Source: Bacteroidales bacterium
GTDB lineage: Bacteria > Bacteroidota > Bacteroidia > Bacteroidales > VadinHA17
Direction: 5' to 3'
Assembly: GCA_012513795.1 (NCBI GenBank)
Contig: JAAZBN010000039.1
Location: 1-40,056, forward strand
Length of the DNA: 40,056 bases
Positions within the stretch are counted from its first letter, which is position 1, and every line of letters starts with the position of its first letter. Positions 3,945 through 33,337 of the stretch are shown here, piece by piece. Position numbers and translations under genes: made by a program. The notes under the pieces were generated by a model that made no database searches, was not told the DNA's origin, and saw nothing but the letters and a program-made list of their open reading frames with translations.

Positions 3945-4364
3945 ATGTCGGTAATCCGTTTTGGGGTTTCACTGGAGAAGGAGCTTTTGGAACTGCTTGA
4001 CAATTTCGTTGAGGAGAATCTCTTCTCCAACCGTTCCCAGGCTATCAGGCATCTTATCAGCAGCAGCCTCGCCGAAAAGAAGTGGCACTGCAGCAATGAG
4101 GTGACAGGCTCAGTGACTATCCTCTATGACCGGCAGAAGAGAGGGGTTATGGAACAGCTTGCAGGTATCCGTCATTCACATGATCCTCTGATTCTCTCAA
4201 TGCAGCAGCATATGATTGATCACAATCAGTGTCTTGAGCTGGTTGCCGTCAGGGGCAGGGCCGCGGATCTTACGGACCTGGCTGACAGGTTACGCAGTGT
4301 CAGGGGGGTGAGGTTTGCAAGGCTGACCATAACAAGGATAAAGCCGGAGGAGGAGCATGCATAA
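3945..4364 (+). CDS. nikR: NikR-family ribbon-helix-helix metal-responsive regulator
   Basis: This 139-residue protein matches NikR in length and domain order. The N-terminal ribbon-helix-helix DNA-binding domain contains the strand VIRFGVSLEKE and the helix NRSQAIRHLI (about 3-42). The C-terminal ACT-like metal-sensing domain contains QCLELVAVRG (about 95-104) and a final RGVRFARLTI strand. In E. coli NikR nickel is bound by His76, His87, His89 and Cys95. The counterparts here appear to be His77, Gln87, His89 and Cys96, so one ligand seems replaced, although His79 and His93 are close by. The gene heads the operon and overlaps the transporter lipoprotein gene by 8 bp, so it probably controls that transporter in response to nickel or a related metal. 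Family assignment is firm; metal identity is inferred. Confidence 0.9.
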   Translation: MSVIRFGVSLEKELLELLDNFVEENLFSNRSQAIRHLISSSLAEKKWHCSNEVTGSVTILYDRQKRGVMEQLAGIRHSHDPLILSMQQHMIDHNQCLELVAVRGRAADLTDLADRLRSVRGVRFARLTITRIKPEEEHA

Positions 4365-5571
4365 GGCAGCCGGATTACAGGCCTTTGGACGGTTCTGCCG
4401 GGCACTTTCCGACAGGGGAGGGCAGAAGCAGGGCGGCTCGTGGCATCTTCCCATGATCATGATCATGACGGCGGTGGTTGCATCGTCCTGCGGTTCATCG
4501 CGACAGCCTCATGAGGGCCGTCTTATTACTGACAGCGCAGGACGGCAGGTGACTGTTCCGGATACTGTAAAGTCGGTTATTGCCCTTAAGTCGGGCACGC
4601 TGAGACTCCTCAGCTACATGAAGGTGACTCACCTTGTCAGCCATATAGAGGGGAGTGAACAGCGGCGCAATGTGCTCTATCTCTTTGCCAATCCGCATCT
4701 CAGGGAGTTACCCCCCATCGGGGCCGGCAATAACTATGATACTGAGCTCCTGGCGGCAGCGGCTCCTGACCTGATTCTTGCCACCTTCATGTCGCCGCTC
4801 GAGGCTGACAGGCTTGAGCAGCTGACCCGGAGGCCGGTGGTGCTGCTGGAGTATGGTGATCTTGGAGAACGCAGGACGAAACTCTTTGGCACGCTGACAC
4901 TCCTGGGAACGATTTTCCACAGGGAGGAGAGAGCTGATACGCTCATCAACTACATTGAAACCACAATCAATGAGTGTACACGCAGGGCAGCCGCTGCCAC
5001 GGAAAAGCCCTGTTCAGCCTATATCGGGGGTGTAGCGTATAACGGCGCACACGGCATCACCTCAACGGAGCCCGATTATCCTCCTTTTGCCATGCTCTCA
5101 GTGTACAATGTTGCTGCGGGACTGGGACTGAGGGTCAACGGCGATGCCCCTGGGCACGAGGTTGTATTCATTGATCCCGAGCAGCTTATACAATGGAATC
5201 CGGATATTCTGTTCCTTGATGCTGCCGGCAGCCGTATATGGGAAGAGGAACTTGCCGCGCCCTCAGTCTTCTCCCCGCTGAAAGCATTGCGGGAAGGCAA
5301 GGCATACACCGTCCTTCCGTACAACTGGAACACCACCAACTATGAGAACCTGTTGTGCAATGCCTGGTATATAGGCTCACTGCTTATGCCATCAGCCTTC
5401 GGCGATGTGGATGCCGGGCAGAAGGGCAGGGAGGTGATGCAGCTCCTCTATGGCGCTGATATCTATGACAGGGCGGTTGACTATTACCAGCCCTTCAGGC
5501 AATATCTTGATTTCAGTATGCATGACAACATATCATCAGCGGATACTCTTCCGGCAATCAGGCATGAGTGA
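4357..5571 (+). CDS. BtuF/FepB-type metal-chelate binding lipoprotein of ABC transporter
   Basis: This is a periplasmic substrate-binding protein of the class that captures cobalamin, siderophores, haem or other metal chelates. The N-terminus has a hydrophobic stretch ending in a lipobox-like VVASSC (Cys45), preceded by an unusually long n-region of about 30 residues. The conserved start of the fold follows (TDSAGRQVTVPDTVKSVIAL, about 58-77), then the mid-domain ELLAAAAPDLILAT and the C-terminal lobe (NPDILFLD, KAYTVLPYNW). At 404 residues it is normal length for the family. The ATG overlaps the nikR stop by 8 bp and is preceded by a strong GGAGGAG, supporting translational coupling and this start. 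The permease follows directly. The chelated metal cannot be read from sequence; the NikR regulator suggests nickel or cobalt. Confidence 0.88.
   Translation: MHKAAGLQAFGRFCRALSDRGGQKQGGSWHLPMIMIMTAVVASSCGSSRQPHEGRLITDSAGRQVTVPDTVKSVIALKSGTLRLLSYMKVTHLVSHIEGSEQRRNVLYLFANPHLRELPPIGAGNNYDTELLAAAAPDLILATFMSPLEADRLEQLTRRPVVLLEYGDLGERRTKLFGTLTLLGTIFHREERADTLINYIETTINECTRRAAAATEKPCSAYIGGVAYNGAHGITSTEPDYPPFAMLSVYNVAAGLGLRVNGDAPGHEVVFIDPEQLIQWNPDILFLDAAGSRIWEEELAAPSVFSPLKALREGKAYTVLPYNWNTTNYENLLCNAWYIGSLLMPSAFGDVDAGQKGREVMQLLYGADIYDRAVDYYQPFRQYLDFSMHDNISSADTLPAIRHE
4452..4467. repeat. 16-bp perfect palindrome inside the signal-peptide codons
   Basis: CATGATCATGATCATG is fully self-complementary and encodes the odd MIMIM stretch of the binding-protein signal peptide. 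It could form a small RNA hairpin about 95 nt after the start codon or serve as a protein site, but codon choice in a Met/Ile run gives the same pattern by chance. Confidence 0.5.
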
Positions 5572-6647
5572 TGAAGAGAGAGCATGAGATAGAGAAGCAG
5601 TACAGCCTGTTTGTAAACCGCAAGGGCAGGTTCATATGGATTGCAGGGGTGGTCGCCCTCATCCTGGCTGTCACCGGCCTGGCCCTGGGGCCGAGCAGCA
5701 TCAGCTTCCGTGATCTGCTTGCGCTCTTTTCGGATAGTCGTGACGCTCTTCATCACGGGATCATCTTTCAGATAAGGTTGCCGAGGGTACTGGCCGGAAT
5801 ACTCAGTGGCATGGCTCTTTCTGTCAGCGGTGTGGTGATGCAGAGTGTCCTGAGGAACCCACTCGGATCACCGTTCACCCTGGGAATAAGCAACGCGGCC
5901 GCTTTTGGTGCGGCTTTTGCCATAATTATCTTTGGTGCGGGAAGCATGTACAGCAGCAGCTCCGATGCGGTGATGATAGCCAATCCATATGTTGTCACCG
6001 CCTCAGCCTTCGTATGGTCCCTGGGAGCCTGCTTCCTGATTCTCCTGGTGGCAAAGCGAAGGGGAGCCACACCCGAGAACATGATCCTTACCGGTATCAT
6101 CGCCAGCTCACTCTTCACAGCCCTGACCACCGGACTGCAGTACGTTGCTGATGATGTGGAGCTGGCGACAATTGTCTTCTGGACTTTCGGCGACCTGAGC
6201 AAGGGCGGATGGAATGAACTGCTGCTCCAGGTGGTGATAGTGGTGCCGGTAATGGTCTATTTCTATCGTAACAGGTGGAATTATAATGCACTCGATGCCG
6301 GAGATGAGACAGCACGAAGCCTGGGTGTCAACATAGGCAGGCTCAGACTGACGGGAATGGTGGTTGCATCACTGGCCACGGCGGCTGTGGTTTCGTTTTA
6401 CGGGATCATTGCCTTCGTGGGACTGGTTGTGCCACACATGGTGCGCAGGATAACGGGAGGAGACGAGCGGTTCCTGATCCCGGGAGCGGCTCTTGCCGGT
6501 GCAGCATTCATGACAGGCTGTGATATTGTGGCACGTACACTCCTTTCGCCGGTGGTGCTTCCCGTGGGAATACTCACATCATTGATTGGAGCACCGCTTT
6601 TTGTGCTGCTGCTGATAAAGGGGAAGGGAGGGTCACAATGGAGATGA
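5571..6647 (+). CDS. FecCD-family ABC transporter permease (metal chelate)
   Basis: An inner-membrane permease of about 358 residues with the roughly ten membrane segments typical of BtuC/FecC/FecD proteins. Family hallmarks are RLPRVLAGILSGMALSVSG near residue 70, MQSVLRNPLGSPFTLGIS near 90, and the coupling-helix region FVGLVVPHMVR near 275. The ATG at 5571 overlaps the preceding TGA by one base (TGATG). A GTG one codon earlier is also in frame but less likely. It would form the channel for the substrate delivered by the upstream lipoprotein and powered by the downstream ATPase. It overlaps the ATPase gene by 10 bp, so the three transporter genes form one tightly coupled unit. Confidence 0.93.
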   Translation: MKREHEIEKQYSLFVNRKGRFIWIAGVVALILAVTGLALGPSSISFRDLLALFSDSRDALHHGIIFQIRLPRVLAGILSGMALSVSGVVMQSVLRNPLGSPFTLGISNAAAFGAAFAIIIFGAGSMYSSSSDAVMIANPYVVTASAFVWSLGACFLILLVAKRRGATPENMILTGIIASSLFTALTTGLQYVADDVELATIVFWTFGDLSKGGWNELLLQVVIVVPVMVYFYRNRWNYNALDAGDETARSLGVNIGRLRLTGMVVASLATAAVVSFYGIIAFVGLVVPHMVRRITGGDERFLIPGAALAGAAFMTGCDIVARTLLSPVVLPVGILTSLIGAPLFVLLLIKGKGGSQWR

Positions 6648-7402
6648 TCAGCCTTACATCAGTGCATTTCGCCTATAACGGCCTGAAAGTGATAAATGAT
6701 GTATCACATGTCTTTGAAAAGGGATCATTCACGGCTATCCTGGGTCCGAACGGGTCGGGAAAGACAACCCTGATAAGGCTTATGAACGGCCTCCTTAAGC
6801 CGCAGTCGGGACTCGTTGAGGTGATGGGACGAAGGGCAGGCGATTACGGGGCCAGGGAGCTGGCCCAGCAGATGGCCTACGTGCCACAGTCACAGTATAA
6901 CCTTTTCCCCGCAACGGTCTTTGACACGGTACTGCTGGGCCGGAATCCATATGTCTCCTGGTCGCCCGGCAGGGACGACCGCCGTATCACCTCGGAGATA
7001 CTTGTCAGGCTGGGACTGGATGACATCGCCCTGAAGGACATAAACAAGCTGAGCGGCGGACAGCGTCAGCGGGTCTTCATAGCCAGGGCGCTGGCACAGC
7101 AGCCTGCCCTGATGTTGCTTGATGAGCCCACTGCCAGCCTCGACCTGAAGCATCAGCATGAGACACTGCATCTGCTCAGGGAGTTAAGTGCAGGAGGGAT
7201 GACAGTTATTGTTTCTATCCATGATCTCAACCTGGCCCTGAAGTATTGCACCAGCTTCATGATCCTTGATGGTGGGCGGCTTGTGGCGGAGGGAGGCAGG
7301 GAGATATTCAAGGAGAAGCTGATTGAAGATGTCTACAAGGTGAGGGTAAAAATAATCACGGAGGAGGAGCAGATATTCATCCTGCCCGTGGAACCGGTTT
7401 AA
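6638..7402 (+). CDS. ABC transporter ATPase, FepC/BtuD type
   Basis: This 254-residue cytoplasmic ATPase drives the metal-chelate importer. All nucleotide-binding motifs are present: Walker A GPNGSGKTT (36-44), Q-loop Gln84 in YVPQSQ, signature LSGGQRQRV (138-146), Walker B LMLLDEP (158-164), D-loop SLD and the switch His195 in SIHDLNLA. ALAQQP after the signature and the overall length are usual for the FepC/BtuD/FhuC group. The ATG lies within the 3' end of the permease gene and is preceded by GGGAGGG, a good ribosome-binding site; ATG at 6644 is an in-frame alternative. A short TsaA/TrmO-like gene begins 11 bp after the stop and is probably co-transcribed. Confidence 0.95.
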   Translation: MEMISLTSVHFAYNGLKVINDVSHVFEKGSFTAILGPNGSGKTTLIRLMNGLLKPQSGLVEVMGRRAGDYGARELAQQMAYVPQSQYNLFPATVFDTVLLGRNPYVSWSPGRDDRRITSEILVRLGLDDIALKDINKLSGGQRQRVFIARALAQQPALMLLDEPTASLDLKHQHETLHLLRELSAGGMTVIVSIHDLNLALKYCTSFMILDGGRLVAEGGREIFKEKLIEDVYKVRVKIITEEEQIFILPVEPV

Positions 7403-7413
7403 CAATTACATTG

Positions 7414-7800
7414 ATGAAGGAATTACAGATAACAGTGATAGGGCATGTCCGTAACGAATGGAAGAAAGCCAAACCATTTGAGGCTGATGCAATCAAAAGC
7501 AGCATCTCAACCATTGTGGTAAAGAAGGAGTATGCCGACGGGCTGTACAAGATAGAGAACTTCAGAGAGCTGAATGTGCTGTTTTATTTTGACAGGTCGT
7601 TGGGTTATGAGCTGCGCACCTCCACCCGCTCGGGTGATTTCCGTGGCGTGTTTGCCTGCTGCTCACCGCGCAGGCCCAGCCTGATAGGGCTAACCACCGT
7701 GGAGTTGCTGAAGGTTGAAGAGAATGTCCTTACCGTCACGGGACTTGACGCCATCAACAACACCCCGGTGCTTGACATAAAACCGGTGATACCCAGGTAG
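7414..7800 (+). CDS. Short TsaA/TrmO-like (UPF0066) protein
   Basis: This 128-residue protein belongs to the TsaA/TrmO beta-barrel family, whose studied member TrmO uses S-adenosylmethionine to methylate t6A37 in tRNA. Family landmarks are IGHVRN (9-14), the LNVLFYFD strand (53-60), the loop GVFACCSPRRPSLIGLT (78-94) and the closing LDAINNTPVLDIKPVIP (111-127). It has only the core domain; E. coli TrmO is about 235 residues. In E. coli the loop reads ATRSTFRPNPIG, whereas here Thr-Arg is replaced by Cys82-Cys83 and RPNPIG by RPSLIG, so tRNA methylation is uncertain. It is the last gene of the nikR transporter operon, which suggests a role linked to metal supply. The ATG at 7414 is preferred over the TTG one codon before. 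Confidence 0.8.
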   Translation: MKELQITVIGHVRNEWKKAKPFEADAIKSSISTIVVKKEYADGLYKIENFRELNVLFYFDRSLGYELRTSTRSGDFRGVFACCSPRRPSLIGLTTVELLKVEENVLTVTGLDAINNTPVLDIKPVIPR

Positions 7801-8072: not shown

Positions 8073-9764
8073 CTATTCCCATCCTGGATTTTGCTGCAAT
8101 TCAGGATTTATGGAAATTACACTGTATGGATACGGGAACCACTCGTGTTTTCCTGCCACAAAGCCAGTTGTTTTACCAGCATTAGGTTCCGAGTAGGTGA
8201 CATATCCTCTGTGTGCAGGCTCATCCAGGGTAAAGTATGCATCTTTAAGCGAAGGAATATTTTTCCCTGCATTCTTTGCTTTATCCAGTTCACCCCAGCG
8301 TTTCATATCAATCCAGCGTGCACCTTCACACCACAACTCGTAGTTCCTCTCTTTCTTAACTTCATCCAGAGTCAGTGAAGTGCTAACATGGTCTGATCCA
8401 GCACGTTCCTGAACCTTCTGGAGATACTGAAGACCATCAGAATCACCTGTCTGGGCGCAGGCCTCAGCATATAGAAGAAGAACGTCAGCATATCTTGCAA
8501 CAATGAAGTTGTTATACCGATACGAGAAAGTTGTCAGCACGTCTTCAGGAGTTGCGATATGCTTTTTCTGCAGGTAACTGCACTGCCCGTAAAGACCATC
8601 GGTATTAACTATTCCTCTTCCGGGATCTGCGAGCTTTTGTGCTTCGGTAAGATTATTTATATCTCCTTCATCACTTGGCCATTCAAGTTCGGTAAGGAAC
8701 TCCTCATACGACAGCATAGTGGCTTTGCGGCGATAGGAATCTCCGTCATTTGCTGCGAACTCATCGGCGAACTCATCTTCAATAGCCAGACCGCCCCATC
8801 CCTGTGCAGCCATATATAGAGGCTGAGCTGCAAGACGGGAAGTTCTCCATCCCCAGATATTCATTTCCATCCAGGTAGAACGCTGGATTTTTCCATCCCA
8901 GTCACCCATGGCAGAATTTGCGGCAATATTTGACTCGAATATTTTCTCTTCGGAGCCGTCACCACCTATATGGAAAATATCGGCCCATTCTTCACCGGGA
9001 ACAAGGTCATATTTACCTGATGTGATTACGTTTTTAAGGGCCAGTTTTGCGTTTGCATAATCACCCTTGTACATAAGAGCTTTTCCCTGAACTGTCCAGG
9101 CAAATCCCTTGGTGACCTTTACAGCGCCATCTTTATCTGCTGTGCTTTTGCGCTCTTCCAGAAATGGTACAGCAGCTGCGCACTCATCTGCACACCACTG
9201 AAGAAGAGCCTCATGCCCGCCCTCATAGTTTGTGGGTTTGTCAGAGCCAGCAAGTACGTGGTCAACAAGCGGAGGGTTGCCCCAGGCCATTGCAGCCATC
9301 ATATGACACCATGCGCGTATTACTCTTGCTTCAGAGATACAACGGTCTTTTACCGGGCTGTCACCGTACTCAAAGTTATCAATGATCAGGTTAGCACGAT
9401 AGATTACGTAGTAGAAATGATTGTACGCCAGCTGAATAACCGGGCTTTGAGTATCAAAACGGAACTCATTGATGGCGGCTACCATATCATTGTCTCCATA
9501 AAATTCTCCTGCTGCGAGAATGTTGTCAGAGGGGTAGTTGAAAAGGATATTCAATGGAACGTAGATAAAGGCACCATCATAACTTGCTATTTGTGTGGCG
9601 AAATGAGCGTACATTGCGACAAGTGCAGACTCCGCATCCGCATCGGTCTGGTAAAACGATTCTATACCAATAACGCCCTTCTGGGGGATATCGAGCCTGT
9701 CCTCACTACATGCAGTGAACAACAGCACGAGTAGCAAGGCTAGTATATGTTTATTCTTTTTCAT
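8073..9764 (-). CDS. SusD-like outer-membrane glycan-binding lipoprotein
   Basis: This 563-residue SusD-family protein forms the lid over its SusC partner and binds oligosaccharides at the cell surface. The signal peptide ends in LLFTACSED (Cys19), giving a surface lipoprotein with the acidic +2/+3 residues often seen for surface export in Bacteroidota. The N-terminal helical region with FYQTDADAESALVAMYAHF and the YRANLIIDN helix is typical. The C-terminal RagB/SusD signature is clear: FIVARYADVLLLYAEA, then LDEVKKERNYELWCEGARW and IDMKRWGEL. It lies 16 bp after the susC gene on the same strand, so the two are co-transcribed. Aromatic residues of the binding site cannot be assigned, so glycan specificity rests on the surrounding arabinose-directed enzymes. 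It is the distal gene of the leftward arm. Confidence 0.96.
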   Translation of the reverse strand: MKKNKHILALLLVLLFTACSEDRLDIPQKGVIGIESFYQTDADAESALVAMYAHFATQIASYDGAFIYVPLNILFNYPSDNILAAGEFYGDNDMVAAINEFRFDTQSPVIQLAYNHFYYVIYRANLIIDNFEYGDSPVKDRCISEARVIRAWCHMMAAMAWGNPPLVDHVLAGSDKPTNYEGGHEALLQWCADECAAAVPFLEERKSTADKDGAVKVTKGFAWTVQGKALMYKGDYANAKLALKNVITSGKYDLVPGEEWADIFHIGGDGSEEKIFESNIAANSAMGDWDGKIQRSTWMEMNIWGWRTSRLAAQPLYMAAQGWGGLAIEDEFADEFAANDGDSYRRKATMLSYEEFLTELEWPSDEGDINNLTEAQKLADPGRGIVNTDGLYGQCSYLQKKHIATPEDVLTTFSYRYNNFIVARYADVLLLYAEACAQTGDSDGLQYLQKVQERAGSDHVSTSLTLDEVKKERNYELWCEGARWIDMKRWGELDKAKNAGKNIPSLKDAYFTLDEPAHRGYVTYSEPNAGKTTGFVAGKHEWFPYPYSVISINPELQQNPGWE

Positions 9765-9780: not shown

Positions 9781-12700
9781 TTAGAATGTAAGATTTACTC
9801 CGAAAATAACCTTTTTGGCTTGCGGATATGTCCCGTTATCATAGCCTGCGGCCGAAGCAGCGTTGTTGGAGGCAGTAGCTGTTTCAGGATCAGCACCAGG
9901 GTACTTTGTAAAAGTAAAGTAATCATCCAGAGACACATAACATCTCAGCCTGTTGATGAGTACCCTGTTGGTAACCGTGGCAGGCAGGGTGTAGCCCAAC
10001 TGTAACTGCTTGATCTTGAAGTAGGCTCCGTTAAACATGGAAGCTGAGGAACCCCAGAAATGCCAGTCATTGGCTACAGCTGCAGGATCAGGCATCGAGC
10101 CTCCGGTGTTTTCTTCTGTCCAGGCGTTATCATAGTAATACCTGAGCGAGTTACGCATTGGAGTATCAGCGCGATAAAACACCGTAAAGATATCATTGCC
10201 ACCTACGCCGGTGCCAAACAGGTTCAGATCCAATCCCTTATAACCAAAGTTAAGGTTAACGCCGTATGTGTAGTCAGGAATTGCTTTTCCAATATAGGTC
10301 ATATCAGCATCACCAATCTGGCCATCTTCATTGACATCCTTGAGTATTGCGGCACCAGTCGCAGCGTCAACACCCTCAAATTGGTAACCCCTGAAGTACC
10401 AGATAGGGTAACCAACCTCAAATGCTGAGTGAATGGGGTTGTTGGTCCCGTCTACACCACCGGTTGAACCGGTAAGGCGTGAAATGGCAGGATCAAGGTA
10501 GGTAACCTCATTGTGCAGTGTGGCGAAGTTAGCGCTGACAGAATAGGTGAAATCTGCACCTATCTTGTCTTTCCAGGCTCCTTCGAATTCGAAACCGCGG
10601 TTGAGCACAGAACCTGCATTCACAACGGTACTCGAAACACCAATTTCCGGGACAGGACTGATGGTTACGAGAAGGTCATTGGTCTTCTTGTTGAAGTGTC
10701 CCAGAGAAAGAGAGAGCCTGTCATTCAGGAATCTCATGTCAATACCGAGGTCGAGCTGTTCTGAGGTCTCCCATGTGAGATCAGGGTTAGCCAGGCCGGA
10801 GGGTGCAGAACCATAGGTGGGAGCACCATCATCTACCATAAACTGGTACCATGAGCTGTTGTAAGCGATACTTGTGCTGTACGGATAATTGTTCAGCACA
10901 TTAATATTGCCATTTAGTCCCCAGGAACCACGGAGTTTCAGGAAAGTGACCGGAATCCGGTCAGCAATACCCGCAAAGAAATTTTCGTTACTGACGATCC
11001 AGCCTGCTGAGAATGAAGGGAAGTAGCCCCAGCGATTTTTTTCTGACAATTTGGAGGAGTCAAATGCATCGGCACGGAAATTACCCTGAACGGTGTATTT
11101 GTTTGCAAAAGTATAGATCAAACGTCCGAAGTAGGATATCTGAGTCGATTTGCCGGGAGCATTGCCGAAGGTCTTGATCGTCTTTTCTTCTCCATCTACA
11201 ATATTGCTTATTACATAATTGAGATAGCGGAAGTTCGGTTCGTATCCTGACAAAATGTTTGGTCCCGAGGCGCTGGCACTGACGTTATCCGTATTATTTT
11301 CGGTGTAAGACATACCAGCCATTGCTGTAACATTATGGTTATCAAGGGCCAGGTTATAATTGGCAAAGTTTTCCCATTGATAATAGTAATTATTATTTGC
11401 GTTGGTGGAGATGTCGTAATTATATGACGATGCCTGCGGTGTGGCAAAATATGGAGTGTTGTAACTGTGAACATTGTTGAGCCCCACCCTGTAACCGAAA
11501 CGGGAGGTGACTACGAGCCCTTTCACAGGCTTAAGGTTTCCATAGATTACACCACGAAGGTTGATCCCTCTGTTGTCGCGGTCAACACGGTCTCTCTGCA
11601 GCAGGGGGTTACCGCTGTCGTCCGTGATATACTTTGATGTAGCATAGTAGAGATCATTGGTAGGATCCTTGAGAATAATCCTGCCTGCATCATAAGCCTG
11701 CCTCATTGATGGGGCGAACTCTTCCGGCGAAGCATAGTAAACAGGAGTCAGGGGATCAAGCGTCATCACCGAGTTCATTACTGAGCCATATTGAGACATC
11801 TGCGAAACTGATTTGGTAGACCAGTTCTCGATAGAGTTGTTGGTACCTACCTGTAACCATTTCTTAAGATCATAGTCTGCATTGATCTGAGCTGTGAGAC
11901 GTTTGTAAACATCCCTGTCTCCCTTCACCATACCGTCATTATTCACATAGTTGATTGAGGTGAAAAAATGTCCCTGGTTATTTCCACCCTGGAAGGTAAA
12001 AGTATGTTGCGGACTCCATGAAGGAGCAAACACTACATCGAACCAATCGGTGTCGGTACCGTCATAACCATTTGCCTCCAGCTGATTATCAATAGGCAGG
12101 CCTGACATTCTCTTATACTCTATGAAATCATCAGCTCTGAAAATTTCCGGTTTCCTGGCAAGGCTTTGCCCGGTGTACTTGAAATCATAAGAAATGCTCG
12201 AAACACCCTGAGTCCCGGATTTTGTTGTAATCAGAACGACTCCGTTACCGGCCTGGGCACCATAGATAGCTGCAGAAGCAGCATCCTTCAATATCTCAAT
12301 GGATTCAATCATAGAAGGATCCAGGTACTGGATGTTATCAACCTTAAGACCGTCTACAATGAGCAGTGGGCCTATATTACCCGAGTTTGATGAGTAACCG
12401 CGTACACGGATGGTTGCAGCCTGTCCGGGAGCACCGGAATTGGTAAGAACCTGGACTCCGGAAGCCTTACCCTGAAGAGCTGCGGCTGCATCAGTGGTTG
12501 ATACATTTTTAATGGCATCTGCCCGGACGGATGCAACAGCTCCGGTAACATCGCTCTTTCTCACAGTGCCATAACCCACAACAACTATCTCATCAAGTGC
12601 CTCTGTGGTCTCTTCCATCATCACATCAATGACAGTCCTGCCATTTACCTGCACTGAAAGATGTTTATAGCCAACAAAGGAGAAGGCCAGTGATGCATTG

Positions 12701-13002
12701 GCCCCGGGTACATCGAGAGTATACCTTCCGTTGACATCTGTAAAAGTACCTGTGGTTGTACCTTCAACCTGTACGGCAACACCTGGCATCGGTTGCCCTT
12801 CGGCATCTCTTACAACCCCGGTGACCCTTAATTGTTGAAGTGTATTATCTGAATTCAGATTCAGATCATCTGCCCCCAGGCAATAAGCATTGCTGCTAAA
12901 AATACCGAGGGTAAAGGTAAGAAGAACTAATTTTGCAATCAGTAAGTGCCTTTGTATTCCCCGTTTTAATAAAGGAATAGGCCTGGTTAGTTTTTGTTCC
13001 AT
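9781..13002 (-). CDS. SusC-like TonB-dependent outer-membrane glycan transporter
   Basis: This 1073-residue SusC-family transporter imports oligosaccharides across the outer membrane using TonB energy, working with the SusD protein encoded next. Domains in order: a signal sequence (about 1-43, with a long n-region MEQKLTRPIPLLKRG), a carboxypeptidase-regulatory-like domain (about 58-135, containing VTGVVRDAEGQPMPGV and FVGYK), a TonB-box-like EIVVVGYGTVRKSDVTGAV (about 138-156), a plug domain with the SusC-specific IRVRGYSS, DGLKVDNIQYLDP and SIEILKDAASAAIYG, and a beta-barrel of about 800 residues ending VIFGVNLTF with a terminal Phe. Length and motif order are normal. The 286-bp upstream region holds inverted repeats and a sequence shared with the GH51 upstream region, suggesting its own regulated promoter. 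Confidence 0.97.
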   Translation of the reverse strand: MEQKLTRPIPLLKRGIQRHLLIAKLVLLTFTLGIFSSNAYCLGADDLNLNSDNTLQQLRVTGVVRDAEGQPMPGVAVQVEGTTTGTFTDVNGRYTLDVPGANASLAFSFVGYKHLSVQVNGRTVIDVMMEETTEALDEIVVVGYGTVRKSDVTGAVASVRADAIKNVSTTDAAAALQGKASGVQVLTNSGAPGQAATIRVRGYSSNSGNIGPLLIVDGLKVDNIQYLDPSMIESIEILKDAASAAIYGAQAGNGVVLITTKSGTQGVSSISYDFKYTGQSLARKPEIFRADDFIEYKRMSGLPIDNQLEANGYDGTDTDWFDVVFAPSWSPQHTFTFQGGNNQGHFFTSINYVNNDGMVKGDRDVYKRLTAQINADYDLKKWLQVGTNNSIENWSTKSVSQMSQYGSVMNSVMTLDPLTPVYYASPEEFAPSMRQAYDAGRIILKDPTNDLYYATSKYITDDSGNPLLQRDRVDRDNRGINLRGVIYGNLKPVKGLVVTSRFGYRVGLNNVHSYNTPYFATPQASSYNYDISTNANNNYYYQWENFANYNLALDNHNVTAMAGMSYTENNTDNVSASASGPNILSGYEPNFRYLNYVISNIVDGEEKTIKTFGNAPGKSTQISYFGRLIYTFANKYTVQGNFRADAFDSSKLSEKNRWGYFPSFSAGWIVSNENFFAGIADRIPVTFLKLRGSWGLNGNINVLNNYPYSTSIAYNSSWYQFMVDDGAPTYGSAPSGLANPDLTWETSEQLDLGIDMRFLNDRLSLSLGHFNKKTNDLLVTISPVPEIGVSSTVVNAGSVLNRGFEFEGAWKDKIGADFTYSVSANFATLHNEVTYLDPAISRLTGSTGGVDGTNNPIHSAFEVGYPIWYFRGYQFEGVDAATGAAILKDVNEDGQIGDADMTYIGKAIPDYTYGVNLNFGYKGLDLNLFGTGVGGNDIFTVFYRADTPMRNSLRYYYDNAWTEENTGGSMPDPAAVANDWHFWGSSASMFNGAYFKIKQLQLGYTLPATVTNRVLINRLRCYVSLDDYFTFTKYPGADPETATASNNAASAAGYDNGTYPQAKKVIFGVNLTF

Positions 13003-13288
13003 AACTTGGTTGTTTAGTTAATTAGGAGTTTCCATTAAATAGGAGTAAATATTTTTTATTAGAGTTCATGGATATTCCAAATCCACTGGATCAGGTGAGG
13101 TTCATCAGGTTTGTTTCATAGGCAATCAGGTTTTGTTATTGGACTCTTAAGGCTTGTGGTATTCAGTAAGTGTAGTATGAACACTTTCACTTTGCTTTCA
13201 AAGCAAGGAAAAAGTTCTTATAAACACTTTTGTTTTTTAGTCAAAGAGCTTTAAAAATCATTCAAAGTACATGAAAGTGTATTATAGT
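13003..13288 (-). promoter_or_regulatory. Upstream region of susC with repeated ACACTTTCA motifs
   Basis: This 286-bp AT-rich gap lies between the GH51 stop and the susC start, both leftward. It holds ACACTTTCA at 13181-13189 and its reverse complement at 13272-13280, a related ACACTTTT near 13226, and an inverted repeat TTGCTTT-C-AAAGCAA (13192-13206). The 11-mer ACTTTCACTTT at 13183-13193 recurs upstream of the GH51 gene (14874-14884). No good TAnnTTTG element was seen. A role as binding sites for the HTCS regulator is inferred. Confidence 0.45.
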
Positions 13289-14788
13289 TCACCTAAGCGG
13301 AACCATGATCTGAGTGAATGAATGAGCCGGGAATGAATATCTGATTGTATTGCCCTTGAATTTGATATCAGATGATGTTGTGTTAACAGCCTCTGCAGCC
13401 CTCGGATTTCCGGGATCGGCTATTTTGCCGTTCACCTCATTCACTTCAGCAGTACCGGCGAATTCGCCCGTCTGAAGGACTATGTCTGTTTCAATGGCCT
13501 TTGTCTCATGCCTGTTGACCACGTTGATCACCAGGACTTCGTTGTTAAGCACAGCTGTAACGTCGAGGTAAGGAATTTCTTCGAAAACAGCATTGCTGTA
13601 TTTTTCGCAGTCAGTGCTGACATCGAGTGATATGCCGAAGCAATTGTTGCTGTAGAGCCAGAATGCCTTGTAGGTTGCGTTCTTGTAGGCTCCTTCAGGT
13701 GAGTACCCCACAAGGCTTGAAAGCATAGTCATATTGGCCATCTTTACAATATCTGCATGCCTGATGAAGGAATTAAGGTGCTGTGCAACCATCAGTGATA
13801 CAGTGATGCTGTTACCAAACCCTCCGGCCCATTCATCAAATGAGATATAGACCGGTCGTGTTGATCCTGTTTTTGTCATCGCTTTGAGGATGAGAGCCTT
13901 CACCGTCTCTATTTTCTGGTCAAGGTCAAGTCCAAGGCACATCATCCCTGAGAAGCTTCTGTCATTACCCAGCGCCTCGGTTGCGTACCGGTGCACTGAG
14001 AGGTAATCAATGGAGCCTGTCATATGGGTCAACACGTAGTCATTCCAGTCTATCCAGCCATTATCCGGTTTGTAATTTGAGGCGCCACTGGCAATAAGTT
14101 TGATGTCCTTATCAACCAGTTGCATCAGTTTACCTGCCTCAAGGGCGAACTTAACATAGTCTTCAGCGCTCTTCTGTCCCATCTGCCACGGTCCGTCAAT
14201 CTCATTTCCCAGGGCCCAGTACTTTACTTTAAAAGGTTCCTCATTACCATATTTCCTTCTCAGATCAGAATAATAAGTGCCCTTTTCAATGTTGCAGTAT
14301 TCCACCCAGTGCCTTGCCTGGTCAAGGGTGCCCGTTCCCGCGTTTATGCAGATGAAATTCTCCGCTCCGAGGAGTTTGCAGAGCTGCACATATTCATCAG
14401 TTCCCATATGATTTGATTCAACCTGGTGCCAGGCAAGGTCGAGTCTTGCCGGTCGTTGCTCCTTCGGGCCGATTCCATCCTCCCAGTTATATCCTGACAC
14501 GTAGTTGCCGCCGGGCCACCTGACAACCGGAATTTTCAGCTCGCGGACAAGCTGAACGAAGTCTTTCCTGAAGCCATTCTCGTCAGCAAAGGGAGAAGCA
14601 GGATCATAGATGCTTCCATAAACCACATTACGTATAGGTTCAACGAAGGCTCCGTAGATGTTAGGATCAACCATGCCTGCCTGGCGATCAAAGTCGATCT
14701 TTATCACAGCGTTATCCTGGGACATCAGGTTCCCGGAAAGAATACCGGAGAGAACCATGCAACCAAATAAAACAGTCAGCTTCTTCAT
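13289..14788 (-). CDS. GH51 alpha-L-arabinofuranosidase, secreted
   Basis: This 499-residue GH51 enzyme releases terminal alpha-L-arabinofuranosyl residues from arabinan, arabinoxylan or their oligosaccharides by a retaining mechanism. A signal peptide (to about residue 23, LMSQD) sends it to the periplasm. The N-terminal part shows YGAFVEP (45-51) and RWPGGNYVSGYNWEDGIGP (90-108), both diagnostic of GH51. The acid/base is Glu196 in WALGNEIDGPW and the nucleophile Glu319 in ISFDEWAGG. The C-terminal beta-sandwich follows to the last strand FTQIMVPLR. Length is normal. It lies upstream of susC in the same direction, but a 286-bp gap suggests susCD also has its own promoter. The region before it is shared with a divergent GH43 gene. 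Specific linkage preference cannot be read from the sequence. Confidence 0.95.
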   Translation of the reverse strand: MKKLTVLFGCMVLSGILSGNLMSQDNAVIKIDFDRQAGMVDPNIYGAFVEPIRNVVYGSIYDPASPFADENGFRKDFVQLVRELKIPVVRWPGGNYVSGYNWEDGIGPKEQRPARLDLAWHQVESNHMGTDEYVQLCKLLGAENFICINAGTGTLDQARHWVEYCNIEKGTYYSDLRRKYGNEEPFKVKYWALGNEIDGPWQMGQKSAEDYVKFALEAGKLMQLVDKDIKLIASGASNYKPDNGWIDWNDYVLTHMTGSIDYLSVHRYATEALGNDRSFSGMMCLGLDLDQKIETVKALILKAMTKTGSTRPVYISFDEWAGGFGNSITVSLMVAQHLNSFIRHADIVKMANMTMLSSLVGYSPEGAYKNATYKAFWLYSNNCFGISLDVSTDCEKYSNAVFEEIPYLDVTAVLNNEVLVINVVNRHETKAIETDIVLQTGEFAGTAEVNEVNGKIADPGNPRAAEAVNTTSSDIKFKGNTIRYSFPAHSFTQIMVPLR

Positions 14789-15059
14789 TCGATAATTATT
14801 TTTTTCGATACCTCAATTCATTTTGAAATATAAGGAAATCCTCCCGCCAGGGAAGCAGGTGGGAACCGTAATTACTTTCACTTTTACGTCATTGGTTATA
14901 AAAATCCTTCAATCAAAAGATATCGGTGGTAAATACTGCTTGTGTGGCCTTTTTTATGGCCGGGTGAGGTGATTCTGTGACAAGTTTTTCTATCTTTCCT
15001 TAGCGTTAATGAAAAGTCTGTAAGCCACACGGCATATAGACAACTTAATACATCCACCA
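14789..15059. promoter_or_regulatory. Divergent regulatory region between GH51 and GH43 genes
   Basis: This 271-bp region must carry promoters for the leftward GH51 gene and the rightward GH43 gene. On the minus strand, TATATTTC (14825-14832) resembles the TAnnTTTG -7 box 37 nt before the GH51 start. On the plus strand, TATCTTTC (14991-14998) is a similar weak match 62 nt before the GH43 start. ACTTTCACTTTT (14874-14885) repeats a sequence found upstream of susC and may be an operator. Neither promoter has a convincing -33 box. Confidence 0.4.
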
Positions 15060-16784
15060 ATGAAAAAGTCTTTTATAGTTATGCTTCTTATCCTGACTTC
15101 CTGTTCAGGAGAAATGATTAAACAGGAAAGAACTTATTGCAATCCACTGAACCTCAACTACCGGTTTCAGTACACTGACAGCGTATCATACCGTGAAGCA
15201 GCCGACCCGGCAATGATACGGTTCAAGGATAAACACATTCTCTTTGTTTCCCACAGCGGAGGGTACTGGTATTCTGATGACCTGCATGAATGGACCTACC
15301 TGCCGGTCAGCTCGCTGCCGATAGAAGACTATGCCCCCGATGCAATAGCAATCAATGATACAGTCTGGTTTGCCGCCTCTTCAGCAGAGAGGAAGCCATT
15401 TTATTATACCACAGATCCATTCAGTGATAGCTGGCAACCCCTGAATGACACACTTCCATTTGCCGTTTGGGATCCCCATTTTTTTGTTGATGATGACGGA
15501 CAGAGATATTTGTACTGGGGCTGTTCCAACCAAATGCCTATATATGGAGTGAAGCTAAACTCAAAAATGAATGCAGTTACTGAGCCGGCGGTCCTTATTG
15601 ATCACAATCCCGCAAGCTACGGATGGGAGGTACCGGGCGAATTCAATGAACTGACAAGTAACGGATGGAATGAAGGGGCATGGATGACCAGGTACAACAA
15701 CAGGTATTACCTCCAGTATGCTGCCCCGGGGACGGAATACAGGACTTATGCTGACGGTGTTTATACTGCGGATTCGCCCCTGGGGCCGTTTGAATATGAA
15801 ACATACAGCCCCTTCTCCTATAAACCGGGAGGTTTTGCAGGCGGGGCCGGACACGGCTCGACGTTTCAGGACAAATACGGCAATTACTGGCATATAGCAA
15901 CCATGTCTATATCAATACGTCATATGTTCGAACGACGCCTCGGGCTGTTCCCGGCAGCATTCGACAAGGACGGTGTACTACGGACTTTTACTGCTTTCGG
16001 TGATTATCCGGCAATTGTACCTGACCGGAAATTCGACTTTGAAAAAGAGAGCACCTTTAAGGGGTGGATGCTTCTTTCATATAGAAAGAATGCAGATGCG
16101 TCATCGGCAGTTGATGGTTTCCCTGTCAGCAATGCCTTTGATGAGGATATAAGGACATGGTGGTCAGCTGCCAGCGGCGACAGCGGGGAATGGCTCAGCG
16201 TGGAACTGGATAAGGCTTCCACAGTATATGCTGTTCAGGTCAATTTTGCGGATTACCTTTCAACACTCAAGCCTGACAGCAAGGAAATCTTCTACCGGTA
16301 CAGGATTCTGGCATCACAGGACGGGAAATCATGGGATGTCATTGCAGATAAAAGCAACAACACTGCGGATGCATGCCATGATTATATTCAGCTGGAGAAC
16401 CCGGTCCAGGCCAGATTCATCAGGATTGAAAATGTCAGTGTACCTGATGGCCGGTTCTCTCTTTATGACGTGAGAATCTTCGGAACCAGGGAGGGAAACA
16501 CTCCCGCAGAAGTGAGCACATTCACTGTTTCCCGCAACGAAAATGACACCAGAAGGGCCTTTGTGGAGTGGCCGGCAGATGACAAGGCAACAGGCTATAT
16601 AGTAAACTATGGCACAGACCCCAAAAAACTATATACCTCCGTAATGGTTTACGATGCCGGTTCGCTGATGCTCACTGGCCTGAACAGGGATGTGACATAT
16701 TACTTCAGCGTTGATGCCTTCAACGAATCAGGAATTACAAAAGGTACTGCAATCGTGCCAGACGACCTGCCGGATACCAGGTGA
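15060..16784 (+). CDS. GH43 lipoprotein with discoidin and FN3 domains
   Basis: This 574-residue lipoprotein (LILTSC, Cys15) has an N-terminal five-bladed GH43 domain (about 25-325), an F5/8 type C (discoidin) domain (about 335-475) and an FN3 domain (about 483-565). GH43 catalytic residues are in place: base Asp49 in READPAMIRF, pKa-modulating Asp138 in WDPHFFVDDDG, and acid Glu205 in NEGAWM. GH43 enzymes are inverting arabinofuranosidases, xylosidases or arabinanases; this multidomain form could bind carbohydrate through the discoidin domain, but its subfamily and substrate are not clear. It is the only rightward gene within the left arm of the locus. It faces the GH51 gene divergently and converges on the next GH43 with only 3 bp between stops, leaving no room for a terminator. 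Confidence 0.92.
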   Translation: MKKSFIVMLLILTSCSGEMIKQERTYCNPLNLNYRFQYTDSVSYREAADPAMIRFKDKHILFVSHSGGYWYSDDLHEWTYLPVSSLPIEDYAPDAIAINDTVWFAASSAERKPFYYTTDPFSDSWQPLNDTLPFAVWDPHFFVDDDGQRYLYWGCSNQMPIYGVKLNSKMNAVTEPAVLIDHNPASYGWEVPGEFNELTSNGWNEGAWMTRYNNRYYLQYAAPGTEYRTYADGVYTADSPLGPFEYETYSPFSYKPGGFAGGAGHGSTFQDKYGNYWHIATMSISIRHMFERRLGLFPAAFDKDGVLRTFTAFGDYPAIVPDRKFDFEKESTFKGWMLLSYRKNADASSAVDGFPVSNAFDEDIRTWWSAASGDSGEWLSVELDKASTVYAVQVNFADYLSTLKPDSKEIFYRYRILASQDGKSWDVIADKSNNTADACHDYIQLENPVQARFIRIENVSVPDGRFSLYDVRIFGTREGNTPAEVSTFTVSRNENDTRRAFVEWPADDKATGYIVNYGTDPKKLYTSVMVYDAGSLMLTGLNRDVTYYFSVDAFNESGITKGTAIVPDDLPDTR

Positions 16785-27826: not shown

Positions 27827-29224
<1,398 letters not shown>

Positions 29225-29275
29225 TTAAAAGTCGACCACAAAAGAGTTAAAAAAGCATAATTTCAGGGTACGGCA

Positions 29276-29315: not shown

Positions 29316-29332
29316 GATGCGGATTGAAATAC

Positions 29333-32300
29333 TTAATTTACTTTCCTTACAAACTGCGAGGGAGAAATTCCGAATTGCTTCTGAAAGGTGGTTGCAAAAT
29401 ATGAAGGCGACGAGAATCCAACGAGGTATGATATTTCATTTATCCTGAAATTGCCGTCAATCAAGAGCTCAGCAGCCTTCTTCAGCCTTGTCAGCCTTAT
29501 GTATTCCACAGAGTTGAGGTCTGTCAGGGCTTTTACCTTCCTGTATAGTGTTGAGACACTTATTCCCATTAACTCTGATACCTTCTCAACACTTAAATCA
29601 GTCTCGGAAATATTTTCCATAAGGGTGGAATTAAGCTTCTTAAGGAAATCCTCATCCGTCTTGTTCAGTGCTACGGACCTGAAATGAGCCAGTGGAGAAT
29701 TGATGAAATTCTGCTGTTCAAGCCTTCGGTTTCTTATAAGGTTCTGTATTTGAGCAATAAGATGGTCAGTCTCAAAGGGTTTCTCAATGTAAGCATCTGC
29801 GCCTGAGTCGAGGCCTTCTATCTTTGCATTTACATGAACAGAGGCCGTAAGCAGTATAACCGGAATATGGCTGAATTCAATTGTTGACTTGATCTGACGA
29901 CATAGTTCATATCCGTTCATTACCGGCATAATTACATCACTAACTACCAGAATGATATTAAATTTCTTCAGTGCCTTTAGTGCCTCTTCACCGTTATGAG
30001 TTAGTATTACGTTATATTCGCCGGAAATTTCTTTGGCTATGAACCTGCCCATTTCAATCTCGTCTTCCACCAGAAGCAGATTGTGACAATTGTCTGCAGC
30101 AGAGCTGAAGACTTCAAATTCATCGGTTTCCTTGAGGCTTGATTCCTGTGCGGGATTTTCTATTTCACTGATAGATTCTTCCTGGTATTTGGGCAGCTCA
30201 AGCACAAACGAGTTGCATTGGTTTACGGTAGTGTCAAGAAACAGTCTGCCATGATGAAGTTCAGCTATGGAGCGGGCAAGAGACAACCCCAGTCCGGTGC
30301 CCTTGTTGCCAGGTTTGTTGGAATCAAGCTGATAAAACGGCTCGAAGATCTTATCCGCCAGTTCCTTCGGGATCAAACTGCCGTCATTGTTAATCCTTAT
30401 TTTCATGACACTGTCCTGATCGGTACCCGGCTCCAGACATATGTCAACCCTGGATTCGGCAAACTTCAGTGCATTTGACAGGAGGTTGCTTAAAATCTTT
30501 ATGATTGCTTCCCTGTCCAGGGCAAGCTCGTAATGATTTACCGGTGAATTAAGATTGACAGATATCTGCTTTTCCTCACTGTATGTAAGGAACAGGTTGA
30601 ATGTTGACTCCACCAGCTCGTACAGGTCGGTTCTGATAAAATTGAGTCTCAGTCTTTCCTTCTCTGTCTTCCTGAAATCAAGCAACTGGTTGGTAAGGTT
30701 GAGCAGCCTGTCAGTATTTTTTTTAATGATCCGCAGGTTCTCCTCATGATCATTCAGGTTTTTTGAACCAGCCTTCAGAATTCTGTCAATCGGGCCCTTG
30801 ATCAGGGTCAGCGGGGTCCTGACCTCATGTGTTATATTGGTAAAGAAATTGATCTTTGCATTGAGTATCTCCCTCTCCTTGCCGGCTTCAATGGCCTCTA
30901 TTTGTCTCTGATTTTCGACAGCCTTCTTCTTAAGGTAGGTAATTATCAGGAAGTAGCCAATAGCTGTCACAGTGAACAGGTAAAGTATGTATGCAGGCAG
31001 CGAGAGCCAGAATGGCGGGGAGATCCTGATCCTCAACCTTGCCTCGGTTTCACTCCAGGTATTACCGCTGGTTGAAGAAACAACCCTGAACATGTAATCT
31101 CCCGGAGACAGATTTGCATAGTTTACCTGCCGTTCACCGGACACCTGTACCCAATCCGGATCAGCCCCCTCCATCATATACTTGTATCTTGTAAGCCTGG
31201 GGCTTGTAAAGCCTGGAGATACAAACTCAATGCTTAACGATGACTGATTGTGCTTCAGTGAGATCCTGTCAGTTACAAGTATTGATTTCGAGTCAGGAGA
31301 ACCTTCACCTTTGCCGGGATATTCTCTGCCATTGACATGCAAATCAGTAAAATAAACGGGAGGATTATAGTTGCTTTCCTTTATCTCAGCAGGATTAAAT
31401 GCCAACAGTCCATTGACCATTCCAAAATACATTCTTCCATTTTTATCCTGATAAGCTGAATTATAACTGAATGTATTCCCCAGGAGACCATCATCCCTGG
31501 TATAAACGGTAAAGACGCCTGCATCAGGAGCATATCTGAGCAATCCCCTGGTAGAGGTTATCCACAGGTGACCACGGCTGTCCTCCAGGATGGCACAATA
31601 TATGGCAAATTCAATGTCCCTGCCCGGGATGAACCGGCTGATCACTCCGGTGGATGCATTCATGCAGCTGAATCCGCCTCCTTCAGTGGTGAACCAGATA
31701 TTATGTTCCTTGTCCTCATATATTGAGGTGATATACTCATTTTTAAGTCTGCCGTAATCGTCATGGTCTGATAACACCTGTTCGCACATCTCCGAGGATG
31801 CATCATATTTATGCAATCCCCTCCCGTATGTTCCTACCCAGATGTTGCCCCTGCTGTCCTCATAGAGTGCATGGATGAAAGCATCCGGGGCAACATTTTC
31901 AAGAAGACGGAATGTTGAAGTTTCCCGGTTGAACCGATAAATGCCTGAGACACTGCCTGCGTAGACAGTCCCGTCACCCGCCCTGAGAAAGGTGACGAAA
32001 GAGTTTGTCAACAGACCTTTGCCCTGATCTTTAATAGTATAATGAGACCTTATTTTTCCGGTATTCAGGTTCATTGCATAAATGCCATTGTCATACGTAG
32101 CAATCCATAGTTCGTCATTGTCAACAAGCAATCCCTGGACATTTCTGCTGTTGACCCCGGAAGGACTGTTTCCATAGTAAGATGAGAATATCCCGGTCCG
32201 GGGATCAAGGCTTATGAGACCCGCATCTTCAGTTCCTATCCAGATAGTACCGAATGAGTCAGCCCGGATTTCCCTGACCACATTACCGGTCAGCGAGCCA

Positions 32301-33337
32301 GGCAATCCCGTAGGATAAAACTTTTCGAAGGGTTTGTTTTCATGCGGGAGGTAATTGACCCCGCCATAAAAGGTCCCGGTCCAGATTCCTCCCTCCATGT
32401 CCTGGCAGATGAAACGAATTGCATTATTTGACAGGGAGAACGGGTCAGTGGGAACCATCTGAAGGGCTTTTACAAATCCCGTTTCAAGATTATAAATATA
32501 TATGCCCGATTCTGACCCAATCCATAGTTCGTTATTGTCAAGTAACTCTATTGTATTGATAATGATACTATTATGAAGCCGGGTGTCATCTCCGAACAGG
32601 TCTGTGACCTTACCTGAATTTGGCTCAAAAAGCCTGAGACCTGCCGTTTTGGTTGGTATGACAAATCCGTAACTACCGGCATCCACTATTTTTCCCAGGA
32701 TGGCTGAAGATGCTGTTTCATTGTCGGTCAATATTTTAAAACCAGAGAAGTCATCTGCCCTGGCGTCATATTTATATATACTGCCATCGTAGGCGGATAT
32801 CCAGATATCTCCTGCATTTGTAAGTGTGATGTTTCCAGGCAGAAAATATTCGTTTCCGGAATACCAGGTCAGTCTTCCGGTTTGTTTGCTGTATTTATAT
32901 GTTCCTGTAAAAGTAGCCAGCCAGATATTATCATTGTTATCGGCAACTATATCCACAACCGCCCTGTCAACCTGGAAGTTTTCATCTTCAATGGTTCCGA
33001 AGTAATCATTGTCCGGCATATAATAGCAGAGACCCCTGGCTGTTCCTATCCATATCCATCCCTGATTATCTTCACATAGTGACAGAATGAAGTTGTCCGG
33101 AAGGCTGTTTGATAATGTCTCGTTATGGCTGAAGCTCCTGAACCGGGCCCCGTCAAAGCGGTTAAGACCTTCCTTGGTGGCAAACCACATAAAGCCTCTC
33201 CGGTCCTGTATGCCGGCCATCACTGTATTGTTCGAAAGACCGTTGTCATTGGTGTAATGTCTGAAGTAGTAGGGCCTGCCATCAGCCAGAAATGATAATG
33301 ACGTGAGAATTGACAATATCAGAAACAATCTCTTCAC
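29333..33337 (-). CDS. Hybrid two-component system (HTCS) sensor/regulator of the PUL
   Basis: This 1334-residue protein fuses a full two-component system in one chain, the standard PUL regulator of Bacteroidota. Order: signal/anchor (1-20), two seven-bladed-type propellers of two-component-regulator repeats (about 25-650, many WIGT/WVGT blades), a Y_Y_Y domain (about 690-772), one membrane segment (about 776-800), a histidine kinase with His837 in ITHEVRTPL, an ATPase domain with N952 in LSNLLSNALKFA and GTGLGLSLA, a receiver domain (about 1085-1200) with Asp1134 in VVSDVIMP and Lys1186 in YIEKPFE, and an AraC-type DNA-binding domain (about 1235-1334). It senses an oligosaccharide in the periplasm and activates both arms of the locus. 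The C-terminal HTH is complete. Position between two divergent arms supports control of both. The inducing sugar is unknown. Confidence 0.97.
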   Translation of the reverse strand: MKRLFLILSILTSLSFLADGRPYYFRHYTNDNGLSNNTVMAGIQDRRGFMWFATKEGLNRFDGARFRSFSHNETLSNSLPDNFILSLCEDNQGWIWIGTARGLCYYMPDNDYFGTIEDENFQVDRAVVDIVADNNDNIWLATFTGTYKYSKQTGRLTWYSGNEYFLPGNITLTNAGDIWISAYDGSIYKYDARADDFSGFKILTDNETASSAILGKIVDAGSYGFVIPTKTAGLRLFEPNSGKVTDLFGDDTRLHNSIIINTIELLDNNELWIGSESGIYIYNLETGFVKALQMVPTDPFSLSNNAIRFICQDMEGGIWTGTFYGGVNYLPHENKPFEKFYPTGLPGSLTGNVVREIRADSFGTIWIGTEDAGLISLDPRTGIFSSYYGNSPSGVNSRNVQGLLVDNDELWIATYDNGIYAMNLNTGKIRSHYTIKDQGKGLLTNSFVTFLRAGDGTVYAGSVSGIYRFNRETSTFRLLENVAPDAFIHALYEDSRGNIWVGTYGRGLHKYDASSEMCEQVLSDHDDYGRLKNEYITSIYEDKEHNIWFTTEGGGFSCMNASTGVISRFIPGRDIEFAIYCAILEDSRGHLWITSTRGLLRYAPDAGVFTVYTRDDGLLGNTFSYNSAYQDKNGRMYFGMVNGLLAFNPAEIKESNYNPPVYFTDLHVNGREYPGKGEGSPDSKSILVTDRISLKHNQSSLSIEFVSPGFTSPRLTRYKYMMEGADPDWVQVSGERQVNYANLSPGDYMFRVVSSTSGNTWSETEARLRIRISPPFWLSLPAYILYLFTVTAIGYFLIITYLKKKAVENQRQIEAIEAGKEREILNAKINFFTNITHEVRTPLTLIKGPIDRILKAGSKNLNDHEENLRIIKKNTDRLLNLTNQLLDFRKTEKERLRLNFIRTDLYELVESTFNLFLTYSEEKQISVNLNSPVNHYELALDREAIIKILSNLLSNALKFAESRVDICLEPGTDQDSVMKIRINNDGSLIPKELADKIFEPFYQLDSNKPGNKGTGLGLSLARSIAELHHGRLFLDTTVNQCNSFVLELPKYQEESISEIENPAQESSLKETDEFEVFSSAADNCHNLLLVEDEIEMGRFIAKEISGEYNVILTHNGEEALKALKKFNIILVVSDVIMPVMNGYELCRQIKSTIEFSHIPVILLTASVHVNAKIEGLDSGADAYIEKPFETDHLIAQIQNLIRNRRLEQQNFINSPLAHFRSVALNKTDEDFLKKLNSTLMENISETDLSVEKVSELMGISVSTLYRKVKALTDLNSVEYIRLTRLKKAAELLIDGNFRINEISYLVGFSSPSYFATTFQKQFGISPSQFVRKVN

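Follow-up and report, generated by a model that had tools for sequence, protein, structure and literature searches.

In this study, two homologous elements of about 42 bp were found in a PUL of an uncultured Bacteroidales, one upstream of susCD and the other upstream of a GH51 gene (elements A and B in the table), and both are probably target sites of the HTCS regulator encoded at the same locus. The elements are conserved, have a tandem geometry, are rare in the genome and recur before GH51 or PUL genes in two genera. HTCS regulators are numerous in Bacteroidota, but to our knowledge only a small number of their DNA sites are known from genera other than Bacteroides. The window, that is, the whole stretch of 40,056 nucleotides analysed here, is one whole contig of the genome G000 (3,131,777 b in 317 contigs, 88% complete), and its genes suggest a PUL. 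A Pfam scan that took in 19 window proteins, the ORFs at 3945-7800 being left out, gave among others SusC, SusD, a GH51 arabinofuranosidase, four GH43 enzymes, a SASA esterase, four Esterase-family proteins and the HTCS, together with two GH9-like enzymes, the second of which was just below the GH9 cut-off. From these enzyme families, it is plausible that the window is an arabinoxylan utilisation locus. The first of the two gaps studied lies upstream of the leftward susC gene, and the second lies between the leftward GH51 gene and the rightward GH43 gene.

Table. Positions of genes, candidate regulatory elements and repeats in the window, counted from its first letter.
Feature	Position	Strand	Sequence	Remarks
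susD-like gene	8073..9764	-		Pfam SusD_RagB
susC-like TonB-dependent receptor gene	9781..13002	-		Pfam Plug, TonB_dep_Rec
Candidate -7 box of susC	13167..13174	-	TACACTTA	69 bp beyond second TGA-box; imperfect match to TAnnTTTG
11-mer, first copy	13183..13193	+	ACTTTCACTTT	Poorly conserved; outside element A, in spacer before -7-like box
11-bp stretch of susC spacer	13188..13198	-	AAAGCAAAGTG	Counterpart in G100, absent in G096; placement ambiguous; overlaps first 11-mer
Element A, candidate HTCS operator of susC	13224..13266	-	TTTGAATGATTTTTAAAGCTCTTTGACTAAAAAACAAAAGTG	TGA-boxes start at 13264 and 13243 (21 bp apart)
GH51-type alpha-L-arabinofuranosidase gene	13289..14788	-		Pfam Alpha-L-AF_C, ASD1_dom
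Candidate -7 box of GH51	14825..14832	-	TATATTTC	59 bp beyond second TGA-box
Element B, candidate HTCS operator of GH51	14871..14912	-	TTGAAGGATTTTTATAACCAATGACGTAAAAGTGAAAG	Gap common with divergent GH43; TGA-boxes start at 14911 and 14891 (20 bp apart)
11-mer, second copy	14874..14884	+	ACTTTCACTTT	Inside downstream edge of element B
GH43 enzyme gene, divergent from GH51	15060..16784	+		Pfam Glyco_hydro_43
Second conserved block	29207..29231	-	CTTTTAAATTTCAATCATCATTTGC	Before esterase genes; alignment of seven genomes; also given as CTTTTAAATTTTCAGTCAnnATTTGCaTAAAA
HTCS gene	29333..33337	-		Pfam Reg_prop propeller sensor, Y_Y_Y, HisKA, HATPase, REC and AraC-type HTH_18, all in one chain; SHIP motif at residue 1156

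The orthologous gaps were aligned with those of G100 (susC 92% and GH51 91-92% identical) and G096 (susC 76% and GH51 83-84%); the GH51 gap of G096 aligns poorly and was left out of the conservation count for that gap, for which G000, G100 and G110 were used. In these alignments, 38 of the 43 positions of element A (G000, G100 and G096) and 36 of the 42 positions of element B are invariant. Moreover, when a 40-nt window was slid blindly along the susC gap, the most conserved stretch was 13226-13265, with 37/40 invariant positions versus 188/286 for the whole gap, and in the GH51 gap it was 14870-14909, with 35/40 versus 143/271. The two conserved stretches align mutually (TTGAAtGATTTTTAAAgCtctTTGACtaAAAAacaAAAGT with TTGAAgGATTTTTATAaC-caATGACgtAAAAgtgAAAGT), and a pattern written from both, TGAANGATTTTTANAN{3,8}TGAC, had two matches in the window and none in 100 shuffles. 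The similarity of the two gaps within the window alone is borderline (reached by 87 of 2000 shuffles); the case for the elements rests on conservation and on the further sites.

A- and T-tracts dominate the element, with A-rich flanks beside the TGA(C)-boxes. In 10 of the 11 sites collected, the TGA-box occurs twice on the same strand as a direct repeat, the GH51 site of G096 being degenerate, and the repeat is imperfect because the boxes differ outside the TGA(C) core. The distance from box to box is 19-21 bp in all 11 sites (one box of the GH51 site of G096 was placed by alignment, at 20 or 21 bp), with 21 bp in the susC-type sites and 19-21 bp in the GH51-type sites. The cited sections of Ravcheev et al. 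(2013) describe predicted HTCS operators of Bacteroides thetaiotaomicron as direct repeats with boxes on average 21 bp apart (PMC3878776). In common with the present sites, those operators precede susCD or other PUL genes, consist of two conserved boxes about 21 bp apart and have a linked AraC-type HTCS, and they were also found by phylogenetic footprinting (PMC3878776). The likeness concerns geometry, and the present sites, with a spacing of 19-21 bp, come from an uncultured Bacteroidales MAG. SusR-type operators, as given in the same source, likewise have tandem boxes upstream of PUL genes, but these are 67 or 77 bp apart (PMC3878776), a distance not seen between the boxes here. HTCS proteins are reported to bind DNA at the PULs under their control (PMC3404733, PMC11253607); in EMSA, BT4124 bound the bt4114 promoter and BT4663 the bt4662 promoter (PMC11253607), and targets of BT0366/BT1754 were obtained by ChIP-seq (PMC3404733). 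The HTCS of the window carries the SHIP motif, which is conserved in most HTCSs. A literature search found no description of the present element, which is no proof of absence, and the element is most likely a newly predicted instance of the known HTCS-operator type.

Further copies of the element occur before GH51 or PUL genes in G110, G077, G103 and G036. A profile of six sites, with which 31 sequences were scanned, recovered the G077 site (E 6.5e-5), a third place in G096 (1.7e-4) and, weakly, a site before GH51 in G103 (0.5); the G077 site, in another genus, lies upstream of a GH3-hypothetical-GH51 operon. With nine sites in the profile, the gap before GH51 in G036 was recovered at E 0.07. 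Two models were searched more widely: R1, built from 10 sites, and R2, built from only 5 sites of G000, G100 and G096. In the genome of the window, R1 gave the two window sites at E 1.8e-9 (A) and 4.6e-9 (B), both training sites, and the next match at 0.004 (150 of 2380 first-look candidates scored). In the 117 genomes of the family, for which 54 candidates per genome, a part of the first-look set, were scored with R1 and with R2, R1 returned 11 sites with E<1e-5, which were spread over 7 genomes and each adjoined genes of this PUL or its relatives; 10 were training sites, and the eleventh was that of G110, 88 bp upstream of GH51 with a divergent GH43 gene as in the window. At looser limits, R1 finds a match in nearly every genome (112 of 117 at E 0.5). 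The top three R2 matches outside the training set all adjoin PUL-type genes (G110 at 4.8e-8, G096:C54 at 2.0e-5 and G077 at 9.1e-4); the R2 E-values run optimistic and the 9e-4 of G077 is modest, since nine further rows fell at 0.0029-0.0096 versus about one expected. At E<=0.01, the sites of G103 and G036 and the GH51 site of G096 were absent from the R2 matches. Among 393 genomes sampled across the order, with 16 candidates per genome scored and few close relatives in the sample, only the window's own sites were strong.

Several matches were rejected. Those of R1 in G034 (3.4e-4) and G058 (5.1e-4) are coding and coincide with the start, ATGACAAAAAATCAAAA, of a susC-like gene, and the genes beside that of G087 (1.2e-4) look unrelated, as judged from translations alone. 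Weak matches in the order sample (6e-5 to 7e-5) fell in unrelated-looking places, in G438 inside an ORF and in G223 about 475 bp before a PAS/kinase-like ORF. The third strong copy in G096 (L052:3385-3428) has a susC-type promoter behind it and a divergent SMP-30-like gene beside it, and a carboxylesterase gene follows after about 450 bp; this copy may be what remains of a susC promoter that has moved.

The assignment of the element to the HTCS was weighed against the view that it is a real operator of another regulator, a second AraC-type protein or some other encoded elsewhere, with the HTCS acting at other sites. The element stands upstream of susC and GH51 in G000, G100 and G096, each with the HTCS in the same window or genome, and in G096 the HTCS and susC genes are divergent with the element between them. 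An HTCS of at least 62% identity was found in 11 of the 117 genomes, and 6 of these 11 have a strong site, versus 1 of the other 106 genomes (Fisher 1e-6, a value that is partly circular, as these loci supplied the training sites). In the five other genomes with both HTCS and site, the C-terminal DNA-binding region of the HTCS is 84-88% identical to that of the window. In favour of another regulator, G110, an exception to the pattern, carries a strong site and only HTCS paralogues of 30-34% identity (its genome is 79% complete), and five HTCS-bearing genomes (G072, G048, G054, G083 and G056), several with the HTCS on short contigs, have no R1 site below E 0.01. The DNA-binding regions in these five are 76-84% identical to that of the window and not sharply unlike those of the site-bearing genomes, and a two-box scan gave suggestive matches before susC of G054 and before the HTCS gene of G083 (0/200 shuffles each, 19 regions tested). 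Against another regulator, the tandem boxes about 21 bp apart have the published HTCS geometry (PMC3878776), and the presence of only two strong sites in the genome argues for a local regulator. Furthermore, the HTCS is the sole protein with a DNA-binding domain among the families of the 19 proteins scanned, the ORFs at 3945-7800 lying outside the scan. In addition, no site was found in the stretches examined of G033, G042 and G104, whose genomes contain GH51 relatives of about 80% and no HTCS match above 32% identity (the gene of G104 is broken, and the stretch of G042 contains Ns). Taken with this evidence, an operator of another regulator is rather unlikely.

A search of genome contigs for the HTCS gave, among the best 80 of 584 loci, one close record, WXFE01000174.1 (the G100 contig, HTCS 79%); in the remaining 79, most best matches were limited to the kinase/receiver part. 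Upstream of the HTCS gene in G077 (L067:10456-11029) and G036 (L068:15830-16182), a common TTGAA(T/C)GAATTTCAAAAGGAATTGAT was observed, with two TTGA boxes 21 bp apart, which represent a possible autoregulatory site (2/200 and 0/200 shuffles).

The esterase genes beside the HTCS gene have a different conserved promoter block, a further point on the side of another regulator. Neither R1 nor the two-box scan gave a strong operator match before the esterase genes (29096-29332) or the HTCS gene (33338-33605). On its opposite strand, the block before the esterase genes has a TGACTGA-like half-site, and its TTTG could be a -33 box. Among seven genomes, the opposite-strand half-site was unusual in three (shuffle counts of 4, 4 and 5 in 300), borderline in one more (19/300) and unremarkable in the other three (174-222 of 300). 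For the two-box scores in this gap, 1-3 of 200 shuffles did as well in each of the four genomes that belong to the window's genus, and the scores were unremarkable in G048, G036 and G056 (60, 21 and 77 of 200); the two-box matrix is a rough scan only, since it scored 2 of the 11 training sites low (those of GH51 in G100 and G096, where the input stretch began at the box). The inverted half-site and two-box signal before the esterase genes is thus suggestive.

The initial annotation had proposed as the HTCS site an exact 11-bp repeat, ACTTTCACTTT, together with a core, ACACTTTCA, that recurs inverted near susC. The 11-mer does occur twice on the + strand, with no third copy in the window, in gaps before leftward genes (susC and GH51, the latter gap also preceding the rightward GH43), and the core is present at 13181-13189 (+) and 13272-13280 (-), 91 bp apart. 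The 11-mer proved rare, as an operator of this locus ought to be under that annotation, with 2 copies in the genome, both at this locus; the reversed pattern, taken as a control, has 1. About 1.8 genome copies are expected from the base composition of the window, so that the count is close to expectation and the sole notable point is that both copies fall in one locus. The expectation of 0.02 copies of a given 11-mer in the window is no proof of an excess over chance, since the word was picked after looking. Dinucleotide shuffles of the two gaps had a common 11-mer on the same strand in 92 of 2000 cases and on either strand in 156 of 2000, and when some pair among four promoter gaps was taken, the figure was 162 of 500. 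With these rates, an excess over chance is not established and the 11-mer alone carries little weight.

Conservation in related loci, which the same annotation had set as a test, went against the 11-mer. The susC copy has 5 of 11 positions invariant (G000, G100 and G096) and lies in a stretch missing from G096, and the GH51 copy has 8 of 11 (G000, G100 and G110), with 10 of 11 letters retained in G096. The exact 11-mer is at its aligned place in none of the relatives examined in either gap, including the GH51 place in G100, G096 and G110. An exact copy stands elsewhere in the susC gap of G100, overlapping the GH51 stop codon, and AAAGTGAAAG occurs in the susC gaps of both G100 and G096 at another place, the GH51 end or upstream of the element. 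The inverted core at 13272-13280 was rejected as an operator part: it lies outside the conserved element, 6 of its 9 positions are invariant, and it is ordinary by chance (0.43 expected; at least two copies in 7 of 100 shuffles). The arrangement also differs between the two gaps. For all its exact match and uniqueness to the locus, the 11-mer with its inverted core was accordingly rejected on its poor conservation and chance level, and it is very improbable as the operator. The annotation had picked the correct gaps and the probable regulator, but the wrong letters; each gap does hold a conserved, repeat-structured element of HTCS-operator geometry, which is not the 11-mer.

Other repeats were observed in the susC gaps. 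A TGAAAG..CTTTCA inverted repeat lies just upstream of the operator in G100 (L049:15461-15479, overlapping the GH51 stop codon) and in G096 (L064:8388-8407), of which the window retains only the CTTTCA half, the inverted core discussed above. The susC spacer also contains TTGCTTTCAAAGCAA at 13192-13206, a 15-nt palindrome with 7-nt arms and one central base; G100 has it with a single mismatch, and its position belongs to the stretch that G096 lacks.

The position of the element was compared with that of boxes resembling the Bacteroidota -7 consensus, which the cited source gives as TAnnTTTG (PMC7366714). The second TGA-box is 58-60 bp from a -7-like box in 7 of the 11 sites: 58 bp at susC of G096 and at the third G096 site (a box missed by the search pattern and measured by eye), 59 bp at GH51 of G000 and G100, 60 bp at GH51 of G110, and 59 bp in G077 and in G036 (a poor box). 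The box TATATTTC or TAAATTTC is found at 59-60 bp in G000, G100, G110 and G077. The spacing is 69 bp at susC of G000 and G100 and 67 bp, with a poor box, at GH51 of G096; in G103, a -7-like box was looked for with the patterns and not found. The patterns also matched at 26 bp (susC of G096), 28 bp (G036) and 71 bp (G077), and these matches were set aside. The two 69-bp susC promoters are 11 bp, or about one helical turn, longer than that of G096. As the -7 patterns were chosen by eye, the spacing is a strong hint and not a test, and we only tentatively suggest that the HTCS operator may be held in a fixed rotational phase to the -7 box, at 58-60 bp in two genera, with the 69-bp promoters having gained or kept one turn. 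Another reading takes the conserved stretches for a piece of the core promoter, or for an A-rich, UP-like activating sequence with no specific regulator. It would suit the A- and T-tracts, but it is highly unlikely: both genera have preserved the TGA-boxes with their spacing, a core promoter would not extend to the second box, 58-69 bp upstream of the -7-like box, and a sequence of this sort would be expected in many copies, whereas only two strong ones were found in the genome.

For elements A and B as targets of the HTCS, we infer the binding, the activation and the ligand as follows. The two TGA(C)-boxes, 19-21 bp apart and thus two helical turns, may receive a dimer of HTCS AraC-type domains on one face of the DNA. 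The Bacteroidota -7 box would follow downstream of this dimer in a constant helical phase, after 58-60 bp or one further turn. The propeller sensor may detect (arabino)xylan oligosaccharides, upon which the HTCS would activate the transcription of susCD and GH51.

In conclusion, a conspicuous exact repeat can draw attention away from a functional element next to it. The phasing, if true, would amount to a natural spacing experiment in which HTCS activation is face-of-helix dependent, and box order together with distance would become a general rule for finding HTCS promoters. The conserved candidate operator, with its consistent spacing to a -7-like box in an uncultured Bacteroidales, offers a concrete, testable target and a means of linking genes with this regulator.
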